A DNA stretch of 64,000 nucleotides from Bowdeniella nasicola (GTDB taxonomy: Bacteria; Actinomycetota; Actinomycetes; Actinomycetales; Actinomycetaceae): contig JAUNVA010000001.1 in the NCBI GenBank assembly GCA_030537895.1, positions 124,001 to 188,000 of the forward strand. The letters are read 5' to 3'. The position numbers and the translations under genes are program-made. How positions within the stretch are numbered: the first letter of the stretch is position 1; the number at the start of each line of letters is the position of its first letter. The notes beneath the pieces were generated by a model. It was given only the letters and a program-made list of their open reading frames with translations. It did no database searches and was not told where the DNA came from. Shown one piece after another: positions 1,885 to 45,832 of this stretch.

Positions 1885-3288
1885 ATGGCAGAGGCAGTTG
1901 TGATGCCCCAAGCGGGCAACACCGTTGAATCGTGCATCCTCGTGTCGTGGAATGTCGCTGTAGGCGACACCGTCGAGGCCAGCACCGTCATCTGCGAGGC
2001 CGAGACAGACAAGTCCACGGTCGACGTGGAGGCCGGCGCGAGTGGAACCGTTCTCGCCCTCCTGGCCGACGAGGGCGACGAGGTCCCGGTGAAGGACCCG
2101 ATCCTCGTGCTCGGTGCCGAGGGAGACAATGCTGAGGCCGCCTTGAAGGAGCTCGGAATCGAACCGGCGACGACCGGTGAGGCAGGCGAAGTTGAGGAGA
2201 GTGACGACGACGATCTCACTCCCGAGGCGAGCGAGTCGAGACCCGTCAAGGAATCGGCTGAACCCGCCCCCGCCCCCGCGCGCGAACGCACTTTTGGGCA
2301 GTCCTCTGGGGCCGCGAGCCCCCGCGCGCGCCGCGCCGCCCAGCACAAGGGCGTCGACCTCAGCGGTCTGTCGGGCAGCGGCCCGGGTGGTCGGATTATC
2401 GAGGACGACGTGCTCGATGCGGCCGCCTCGAGTCCCGGCACGACGGTGGGCGCGCGGGCGACCGGCCAGGGTGCTCCGGACACGCCGGGCACCGGGATCG
2501 GCGGGCGCCACACCCGTGCCGATCTTGACGCGGCTGCGGCGCGCCCCGCTCCCGCGGTGGTCTCCGGTGCCGCGACGCGCGAGTACCCGGGCCCCGTCAG
2601 CGAAACTCCCCTGAAGGGGGTGCGCGCCATCATCGCTGAACGGATGATGCACGCCCTCGCGTCGACCGCTCCGGTCACCTACAACGTCTCCGCCCGGGCG
2701 GAGGGTCTGCTCGGCCTGCGCAAGCGTTTCAAGAATTCCCCGGAGGAGCTCGGCTACTCGCGGATCACGATCGGCGACCTGGTCTGCTATGCGACCGTGC
2801 AAACGCTCCGCCGCCATGGCGCACTGAATGCGCACCTGGAAGACAACACCCTCACGACGTTCCAGTCGGTGCACCTCGGTCTCGCCGTCGATACGCCGCG
2901 AGGCCTGCTGGTTCCGACGATCCGCAACGCGGATGCGATGGGGCTGCGCGAATTCTCCCAGACCTCCTACGATCTCGCCCAGCAGGCAATCGGCGGAAAG
3001 ATCGACCCCGACCTGCTCGGAGGAGCGACCTTCACGGTCTCGAACCTCGGTTCCTTCGGCATGGAGTCCTTCACCCCGATCATCAACGTGCCGCAAACCG
3101 CGATCCTCGGGGTCAATACCATCACGCCGCGTGCTGAGGCGGACGCCGACGGCGAGGTGCGGCTCACCCAGCGGATCGGCTTCTCGCTCACCGCTGACCA
3201 CCGCGCGATCGACGGCGCCGACGCGGCCCGCTTCCTGAAGGATCTCGTCGCCGCCATCGAGAACATCGAACTCACCGTGATCGGCTAG
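1885..3288 (+). CDS. 2-oxoacid dehydrogenase E2, dihydrolipoamide acyltransferase
   Basis: 467 residues with the full E2 architecture. One lipoyl domain spans residues 1-77, with lipoylated Lys43 in ETDKS. An acidic and Pro/Ala-rich linker leads to a peripheral subunit-binding domain at about 145-176 (SPRARR ... GPGGRI). A second linker precedes the acyltransferase core at about 235-467, ending in the catalytic motif HRAIDG (His439, Asp443). The protein forms the core of the complex and passes the acyl group from E1 to CoA. It lies between the DeoR gene and the E3 gene (8-base gap), so the genes are co-transcribed. The acyl substrate (pyruvate, branched-chain or other) cannot be told from sequence. 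Confidence 0.92.
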   Translation: MAEAVVMPQAGNTVESCILVSWNVAVGDTVEASTVICEAETDKSTVDVEAGASGTVLALLADEGDEVPVKDPILVLGAEGDNAEAALKELGIEPATTGEAGEVEESDDDDLTPEASESRPVKESAEPAPAPARERTFGQSSGAASPRARRAAQHKGVDLSGLSGSGPGGRIIEDDVLDAAASSPGTTVGARATGQGAPDTPGTGIGGRHTRADLDAAAARPAPAVVSGAATREYPGPVSETPLKGVRAIIAERMMHALASTAPVTYNVSARAEGLLGLRKRFKNSPEELGYSRITIGDLVCYATVQTLRRHGALNAHLEDNTLTTFQSVHLGLAVDTPRGLLVPTIRNADAMGLREFSQTSYDLAQQAIGGKIDPDLLGGATFTVSNLGSFGMESFTPIINVPQTAILGVNTITPRAEADADGEVRLTQRIGFSLTADHRAIDGADAARFLKDLVAAIENIELTVIG

Positions 3289-43876: not shown

Positions 43877-43932
43877 CTGGGCGGGGAATTCCATCAGGTG
43901 GATTCGTACGGCTGGAGGCCCGCGTGGGAGGT

Positions 43933-43938
43933 TAGGAT
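43933..43938 (+). promoter_or_regulatory. -10 box (TAGGAT) upstream of the leu leader peptide
   Basis: TAGGAT is followed by 7 bases and then the ATG at 43946, so the transcript may begin at the leader peptide's start codon. Confidence 0.45.
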
Positions 43939-43945
43939 GCCTGTG

Positions 43946-43993
43946 ATGTGTCGGTACTCGCTTCTGCTTCTCCGCCGCGTCGAGCTCCGGTAA
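43946..43993 (+). CDS. Leucine-rich leader peptide of leuA
   Basis: 15 codons reading MCRYSLLLLRRVELR and TAA: four Leu codons in a row (CTT CTG CTT CTC) and a fifth near the end. It ends 69 bases before the leuA ATG. An in-frame ATG at 43937 with a GGGAGG ribosome site at 43926-43931 would make an 18-residue version. A Leu-codon run directly before leuA is the classical arrangement for ribosome-mediated attenuation, and such leaders before leuA have been described in actinobacteria. Downstream, GGGTTGG (43995-44001) can pair with CCGACCC (44028-44034), but no strong terminator stem was seen. Confidence 0.75.
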   Translation: MCRYSLLLLRRVELR

Positions 43994-44062
43994 TGGGTTG
44001 GCTGCTTGGCGCGGTGCATTGACGAGCCCGACCCGCCACATGATCCGACCGTTGAGGACACA

Positions 44063-45832
44063 ATGAGGACTTCTTCCGCGACCACCTGCCAACCCTCCAC
44101 GATGCCGGTCGAAAAATACCGGTCCTTCCTGGAGACCAACCCCGTCTCCCTGCCTGACCGCACCTGGCCCGACGCCCGTATCGAAAAGGCCCCGCGGTGG
44201 CTGTCCACCGATCTACGCGACGGCAACCAGGCGCTCATCGAGCCGATGGATCCAGGCCGCAAGCGCATGGTGTTCGATCTGCTTGTGGAACTCGGCTACA
44301 AGGAGATCGAGGTGGGCTTCCCTGCCGCTTCGCGCACTGATTACGATTTCGTGCGCTCCCTGATCGAGGACGATGCCATCCCCGAGGATGTCACAATCTC
44401 GGCGCTCACCCAGTCCCGCCAGGACCTCATCCATACCACGATCGAATCGATGCGCGGCGCTCCGCGCGCGACCGTTCACCTGTACAACGCGACGTCGCCA
44501 ACGTTCCGCGAACTGGTATTCCGCGCGGACCGCGATGCGACCCGCGAACTGGCCGTCTCCGGGACGCGCGAGGTGATCGCGCACGCGGAGAAGGTCCTCG
44601 GTGATGAGACGATCTTCGGATACGAATATTCCCCGGAGGTCTTCATTGATACCGAATTGGAGTTTGCCCTCGAGGTGTGCGAGGCCGTGATGGATGTGTG
44701 GCAGCCTGAGGATGGGCGGGAGATTATCTTGAACCTGCCTGCCACCGTTGAGCGCGCCACCCCGAACGTGTACGCGGACCAGATCGAATGGATGTGCCGC
44801 CACCTCTCGCGGCGCGAACACATCGCCGTCTCGGTGCACCCTCACAACGACCGTGGCACCGCCGTCGCCGCGGCCGAACTCGCCGTCATGGCGGGTGCAG
44901 ACCGCGTCGAGGGGTGTCTGTTCGGTCAGGGGGAGCGCACTGGAAACGTCGATCTCGTGACTCTCGGAATGAACCTGTTCAGTCAGGGAGTCGACCCGAT
45001 GATCGACTTCTCCGATATCGACCGCATCCGCCGGATCGTCGAGGGCGCCACGCGGATGGATGTGCACCCGCGTCACCCCTACGGTGGCGATCTCGTGTAC
45101 ACCGCGTTTTCCGGATCGCACCAGGATGCGATCGGCAAGGGCATGAAACGTCGGGAAGAGGAAGTCGCGGCCGCCGGCGGCAATGACACCGCGGTGCCAT
45201 GGACGGTGCCCTATCTGCCAGTTGACCCGCACGACGTCGGCCGCACCTACGAGGCCATTGTGCGCGTCAACTCGCAATCGGGTAAGGGGGGCGTCGCCTA
45301 CCTGCTCTCCTCAACTCGCGACCTGCAGCTGCCCCGCCGGTTGCAAATCGAGGTCTCACGCCTGGTACAGCAGCACTCTGAGATGGACGGCGGCGAAGTC
45401 ACGGCCGAGAGCCTGTGGCGTCTGTTTGCCGACGAATACCTGCCCGCCGCTGCGGCCGCCGGTAACCGCCCCTGGGGACGGTTCGCGCTGCGGGGTACCA
45501 CGGTGACGACGGCCGACGATGGGGAGCACGCGACTCTGACCGTCTCGCTGAAGGACGGTTCTCAGGACCGCGTCCTCGCCGCGACGGGTAACGGACCGAT
45601 CGACGCCTTTACCCAAGCGCTCAAGCAGATCGGTGTCGATGTCCACGTCCTCGATTTTGCGGAGCATGCGCTTTCCACGGGTGGGGACGCGACAGCGGCC
45701 GCGTATATCGAGGCGGAGGTCGATGGCCAGGTCCTGTGGGGCGTGGGGATCGATCCGTCCACGTCGGCGGCGTCCTTCAAGGCGATTATCTCAGCCGTCA
45801 ACCGGGCGGTGCGCAACGCCTCGAGCGTGTAA
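44063..45832 (+). CDS. leuA: 2-isopropylmalate synthase
   Basis: 589 residues, the long type found in actinobacteria. The catalytic barrel opens with STDLRDGNQALIEPM and contains SVHPHNDRGTAVAA (metal-binding His-x-His), followed by the GCLFGQGERTGN segment. The C-terminal regulatory domain (about 450-589) is the leucine feedback region. It makes the first step of leucine synthesis from 2-oxoisovalerate and acetyl-CoA. ATG at 44063 with a GAGG site is chosen over the upstream in-frame ATG at 44006. Probably controlled by the leader peptide. Confidence 0.96.
   Translation: MRTSSATTCQPSTMPVEKYRSFLETNPVSLPDRTWPDARIEKAPRWLSTDLRDGNQALIEPMDPGRKRMVFDLLVELGYKEIEVGFPAASRTDYDFVRSLIEDDAIPEDVTISALTQSRQDLIHTTIESMRGAPRATVHLYNATSPTFRELVFRADRDATRELAVSGTREVIAHAEKVLGDETIFGYEYSPEVFIDTELEFALEVCEAVMDVWQPEDGREIILNLPATVERATPNVYADQIEWMCRHLSRREHIAVSVHPHNDRGTAVAAAELAVMAGADRVEGCLFGQGERTGNVDLVTLGMNLFSQGVDPMIDFSDIDRIRRIVEGATRMDVHPRHPYGGDLVYTAFSGSHQDAIGKGMKRREEEVAAAGGNDTAVPWTVPYLPVDPHDVGRTYEAIVRVNSQSGKGGVAYLLSSTRDLQLPRRLQIEVSRLVQQHSEMDGGEVTAESLWRLFADEYLPAAAAAGNRPWGRFALRGTTVTTADDGEHATLTVSLKDGSQDRVLAATGNGPIDAFTQALKQIGVDVHVLDFAEHALSTGGDATAAAYIEAEVDGQVLWGVGIDPSTSAASFKAIISAVNRAVRNASSV

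Follow-up and report, generated by a model that had tools for sequence, protein, structure and literature searches.

A leucine-coded leader upstream of leuA in Bowdeniella nasicola as a new member of the LEU element, with a predicted leaderless start

The window analysed in this study, a stretch of 64,000 nucleotides from a Bowdeniella nasicola assembly (2.1 Mb, 37 contigs), carries leuA on its forward strand. The LeuA protein was 80-83% identical to that of three congeners, 75% to that of Georgenia/Oceanitalea, and 68% to that of Actinomyces, which places the genome near Actinomyces and Georgenia. Upstream of leuA, a short ORF extends from an ATG at 43946 to a TAA at 43991-43993. Its 15 sense codons encode MCRYSLLLLRRVELR, in which a run of four Leu codons is followed by a fifth (CTC, 43985-43987), and 69 nt separate its stop codon from the leuA ATG at 44063. 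A previous sequence-only reading of this locus, which had described a 15-codon leader with four consecutive Leu codons and a fifth, ending 69 bases before leuA, gave these coordinates correctly. The gap between the TAGGAT box and the leader ATG was 7 nt, and no convincing -35 was seen for this promoter in the window. In addition, an in-frame ATG at 43937 was preceded, at a 5-nt spacing, by GGGAGG (43926-43931). As the same reading had remarked for strong terminator stems, a search for intrinsic terminators on the forward strand of the window, including the interval between the leader and leuA, found none. The Rfam search of the window and the leader returned no family that fits. The stability of a simple fold of 43937-44080 was close to that of shuffled sequences (z 0.24); thus, stability alone was no proof of structure, and conservation was taken as the evidence. 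The features are listed in Table 1.

Table 1. Features of the leuA leader region, in window coordinates.
Feature	Positions	Strand	Basis
-10 box TAGGAT of the leader promoter	43933..43938	+	Sequence and spacing kept in relatives
Predicted leaderless leader ORF, MCRYSLLLLRRVELR and stop	43946..43993	+	Sequence, in-frame conservation
Match to LEU-element covariance model R2	43954..44039	+	51.4 bits, E 5.8e-11
Regulatory Leu codons CTT CTG CTT CTC	43961..43972	+	Leu conservation in 151 unique elements
Leu-codon stretch TTCTC, possible base stem with the leuA SD (5 pairs, TTCTC:GAGGA)	43968..43972	+	Predicted pairing
Hairpin P1, 5' arm CCGCGTCGAGC, within the leader ORF	43975..43985	+	11 pairs with 44004-44014
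Pseudoknot helix, 5' strand GGGTTGG, directly 3' of the leader stop	43995..44001	+	7 pairs, covariation
Hairpin P1, 3' arm GCTTGGCGCGG	44004..44014	+	11 pairs with 43975-43985
Pseudoknot helix, 3' strand CCGACCC	44028..44034	+	7 pairs with 43995-44001, covariation
leuA Shine-Dalgarno (SD) GAGGA, 3' strand of the possible base stem	44054..44058	+	Sequence
leuA, 2-isopropylmalate synthase, gene under regulation	44063..45832	+	LeuA identity to relatives

A conserved LEU element upstream of actinobacterial leuA was described by Seliverstov et al. in 2005 (PMC1262725). Because our covariance model R1 included the window, a second model, R2, was built without the genus of the window. The leader site scored 51.4 bits with R2, and the next matches reached 18.1 bits in the window and 21.2 bits in the genome. 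This score bore out the earlier remark on a likeness to known actinobacterial leuA leaders. Similar to the element described in PMC1262725, the window has a Leu-run leader ORF, a pseudoknot over the leader end (compared by description) and a position directly upstream of leuA. These sequence comparisons indicated that the leuA leader of the window is almost certainly a LEU element; the site is a new member of an already described, well-conserved regulator. R1 matched 32 of 37 relatives at E<=0.05, 256 of 297 sampled genomes of the order, and 279 of 297 of the class, whereas the 67 matches among 396 genomes of the phylum included many weaker ones that are doubtful. Strong element matches were also seen in seven loci of another class of the same phylum (L051, L055, L057, L060, L068, L070, and L109). 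At four loci with leuA (L015, L016, L030, and L048), no LEU element was matched or visible upstream.

In the unique leuA elements, Leu was found at codon -3 before the hairpin in 151/151, at -4 in 148/151, and at -5 in 141/151. Conservation of the run among relatives had been set as the point on which the sequence-only reading could fail, and the run was conserved. The first two positions of the leader Leu codons were 94-100% fixed and the third positions 50-85%, a pattern that indicates constraint on the amino acid. Comparison among the relatives thus showed the predicted leader frame and its Leu codons to be kept as codons. A related class of elements, located before a micro-ORF, had Val/Ile/Leu codons in place of Leu. 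CTT made up 41% of the Leu codons in leaders vs 3% in leuA genes, and occupied codon -3 in 129 of the 151 elements. This bias suggested that either the RNA sequence or the choice of decoding tRNA is constrained, two causes that codon choice alone cannot separate. Together, the amino-acid and RNA constraints fit a ribosome-sensed Leu run that doubles as an anti-SD sequence.

To locate the leader start, ATG and GTG codons upstream of the Leu run were counted by frame in 154 leuA elements. A start 5-8 nt after TANNNT occurred in frame in 131 of the 154, and in the other two frames in 1 and 0. When TANNNT ended 6-7 nt before the start, there were 100 in-frame instances and zero out-of-frame ones. 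The other 23 elements, including Streptomyces-like ones, mostly had a similar box at 9-10 nt, as judged by eye. Of 131 elements, 44 had a -35-like hexamer (4 of 6) at the right spacing and 15 had one at a wrong spacing. SD-like sequence preceded the leader start in 2 of 131 elements vs 64 of 770 in the background, although selection for a -10 box lowers this count by construction; it preceded the leuA start in 131 of 151, a figure biased upward by the use of SD likeness in choosing that start. Given the -10 placement, transcription would start on the leader AUG or no more than about 2 nt from it (in the window, at about 43945-43946), so the leader is very probably translated leaderless, as the sequence-only reading had proposed from TAGGAT lying 7 bases before the ATG. 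That reading had also offered a start at 43937, made on a longer transcript through the GGGAGG site. The good SD, its 5-nt spacing and the in-frame ATG would suit such a start; however, this ATG overlaps the -10 box, the congeners L002 and L003 lack an SD (by eye) at the equivalent place, and SD-like sequence is rare before leader starts, so that the 43937 start is disfavoured to the point of being very improbable.

The S. lividans leader LeuL1 (PMC8079986) resembles the leader of the window in being a 15-residue Leu-run peptide before leuA without a typical terminator. Its leaderless transcription start was mapped, whereas that of the window is predicted from sequence; its peptide is MRFGLLLLSCRGEGL instead of MCRYSLLLLRRVELR, and the -10 spacing is about 10 nt in Streptomyces vs 7 nt in the window. 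The leader peptides of L099, L115, L124, and L125 were identical to that of LeuL1. Mycobacterial poly-cysteine attenuators (Canestrari et al. 2020, cited as translation attenuation in PMC13236596) likewise carry a short leaderless ORF that contains a run of codons for the amino acid under control; they belong to cysteine genes, and this likeness is drawn apart from the LEU pseudoknot. In PMC1262725, a leaderless start is not stated as a feature of the LEU element, whereas the leader of the window is predicted to be leaderless.

The relatives shared an order upstream of leuA of Leu-run leader, hairpin and leuA SD, and a loop strand after the leader stop paired with sequence 3' of the hairpin. 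In these relatives, the hairpin P1 had the consensus CCGCGRCGRGG/CCYCGYCGCGG, with its 5' arm inside the last codons of the leader. The pairing statistics that follow ignore kinship among the genomes. Among 41 relatives, both sides had changed in 7 of the 11 P1 pairs, and 95.8% of cells were paired. For the 18 pairs of P1 and the pseudoknot taken together (MAFFT alignment of the 41 relatives), 86.7% of cells were paired, both-side changes were found in 57 cells vs 20.1 in shuffled data (0/500), and the true register beat every sliding. The pseudoknot helix alone was paired in 69% of cells and had 18 double-change cells vs 9.2 when shuffled (0/500 reached 18); for this count the alignment register was imperfect, and other measures for the helix were weaker. 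An alignment-free comparison of the pseudoknot loop:tail duplex in 151 elements gave -15.0 for the own partner, -12.7 for partners swapped between genomes, and -11.0 for shuffled sequences. As shown by this comparison, the 3' half of the leader and the bases after it are predicted to form the hairpin P1 plus a pseudoknot. The pseudoknot was absent from the earlier reading of the window. A TTTT within 10 nt after P1 was seen in L012, L017, L023, L024, L052, L061, L065, L103, and L207, where P1 might terminate transcription.

The LEU element, as described in PMC1262725, includes a base stem between the Leu codons and the leuA SD, whereas such a stem is weak in the window. The window duplex of Leu run and SD had only -5.1 kcal/mol, and the base stem was disfavoured in the nested fold (-35.7 vs -44.5). 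Across 151 relatives, this duplex averaged -11.7 with the own SD, -10.7 with swapped SDs, and -8.5 with shuffled sequences. The mean rank of the own SD was 0.397 (SE 0.024) for the Leu run and 0.426 for the P1 3' arm, vs 0.487, no effect, for a control region. Against close relatives, the own-versus-swapped difference for the Leu run shrank to -0.54 +/- 0.25 kcal/mol. The comparison showed that the Leu-codon run tends toward complementarity with the leuA SD, and the covariation between the two across relatives was weak but real.

Folding with the ribosome fixed at the Leu codons, a check that had been suggested earlier, gave no clear switch in the window, with the pseudoknot outside the model; the cost of opening the SD hardly varied (3.1 in the free RNA, 3.5 with the ribosome at the stop, and 2.9-3.0 with it at the Leu codons). 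The same folding in 142 relatives revealed no consistent switch. In these relatives, the SD was slightly more closed in the free RNA than in RNA with the ribosome on the early Leu codons, by a mean of 1.5 kcal/mol (81 vs 35 cases), and was not more closed with the ribosome at the stop. Since the duplex of the window is weak and the ribosome-constrained folds showed no switch, we infer the control step in the window from the family. The earlier suggestion that control may act on leuA translation is consistent with the Leu run:SD covariation, with a putative output step.

We consider leucine-dependent control of leuA translation to be the likeliest mechanism and assign a probability of roughly 0.6 to the reading that the LEU element controls leuA through a codon-sensing leaderless leader with an SD-linked output. 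Sequestration of the SD as that output has, in our estimate, an even chance. When leucine is plentiful, ribosomes would pass the Leu codons and depart, and the RNA would fold; the leuA SD would then pair with the stretch of Leu codons (or with the 3' arm of P1), resulting in poor translation of leuA and, as a consequence, perhaps in premature termination. Under a shortage of charged Leu-tRNA, a ribosome would stall on the Leu codons and cover the anti-SD stretch, leaving the SD open for translation of leuA. Leader-codon mutants of S. coelicolor leuA, as reported in PMC1262725, behaved unlike classical attenuation, and this misfit left the leucine response of actinobacterial leuA unsettled. The comparative data indicate constraint on both the frame and the RNA fold, as well as a leaderless leader in nearly the whole class; one or two reporter constructs would thus suffice for a direct test of the translation-sensing model.

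Transcription attenuation, in which stalling on the leader would choose between P1/pseudoknot and premature termination in the leader (intrinsic or Rho-dependent), appears unlikely. The enterobacterial leu operon attenuator (Rfam Leu_leader), a terminator/antiterminator switch that controls leu genes, is like the window in placing a Leu-codon leader peptide before leu genes, whereas the window leader lacks an intrinsic terminator and an Rfam match. The resemblance to classical attenuation noted in the sequence-only reading is partial. A T-run of the kind that intrinsic termination would use followed P1 in 9 of 151 elements, while most elements have P1 without one and no terminator was found on the forward strand of the window. 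For mycobacterial ilvB1 leaders, true transcription attenuation has been reported (PMC13236596), and Rho-dependent termination was proposed for cys leaders without a terminator (PMC1262725), but S. lividans LeuL1 also has no typical terminator (PMC8079986).

Protein control of the LEU element was proposed in PMC1262725, with ML1624 as a candidate regulator. A protein would bind the pseudoknot and control leuA, and the Leu codons would act as RNA instead of codons. The conserved compact pseudoknot, the RNA-level constraint implied by position-specific codon choice (CTT at -3), and those authors' own reading of the S. coelicolor mutants suit this explanation, but it seems quite improbable: the conserved frame, the conserved leaderless start, the synonymous third-position variation, and the amino-acid-appropriate codon changes of the micro-ORF class all point to a role for translation of the leader. 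An alternative-arm switch, in which a ribosome at the stop would cover the P1 5' arm and the P1 3' arm would pair with the leuA SD, is improbable as well. Its duplex was stronger with the own SD (-10.9) than with swapped (-9.7) or shuffled (-8.7) sequences, and was very strong in L005, L007, and L011 (-21.8 to -25.4). However, the pairing was limited to a subset of species, showed no difference among the closest relatives (-0.29 +/- 0.33), and the constrained folds did not close the SD in the stop state. This switch was rejected as a general mechanism and is real in some species only.

Second copies of LEU-type elements were present in some genomes; the genome of the window was searched and had no second strong element and no micro-ORF. 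Six elements with Leu-coded, predicted leaderless leaders, all in one family of the order (f19), lay directly before leuC (L090, L091, L092, L094, L096, and L186, at about 200-385 in the oriented locus). Another class preceded an unannotated micro-ORF of about 20-36 codons with the core RQALQESMDRRD, located upstream of leuB, and its leaders, such as MTRQVVLIAGRGEFQ, MRFVLILRCRDGA, and MLWSVRILSCRDEAR, had mixed Val/Ile/Leu codons. These elements were seen at L097, L102, L188-L193, L206, L209, and L210, and further ones at L302-L307, L311-L313, L317, L324, and L327. An alignment of 12 micro-ORFs had matches at E<=0.01 in 57 of the 198 class genomes, of which the weaker ones are uncertain, and 12 of the best 30 micro-ORF loci had a strong element match. 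The micro-ORF had no match in Pfam or NCBIfam. An interpretation of these elements as leuB leaders was rejected, as the micro-ORF intervenes and a separate promoter-like site precedes leuB in the cases read. PMC1262725 describes LEU elements before leuA and in a transposase only; a description of the leuC and micro-ORF copies was not found in the literature searched, which does not show them to be unreported. We slightly favour the view that LEU-type elements are leaderless attenuators programmed by their codons and form a family general to Actinomycetes, with Leu codons before leuA and, in some lineages, leuC, and with mixed Val/Ile/Leu codons before the micro-ORF; the recoded element before the micro-ORF represents a natural experiment on the sensed amino acid.

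At L104 and L106 (near 3030-3150, minus strand), an element preceded a small protein. The L106 leader was like MSWQKLLVTRRSGV, and the small protein of L104 had a Pfam match to the LeuA allosteric domain that fell short of the curated cut-off (14.1 bits, E 0.044). L213 and L214 (201-288) gave weak matches to the element, of 33.8 and 31.5 bits; their leaders were Leu-rich, and the downstream gene was MFS transporter-like by eye.
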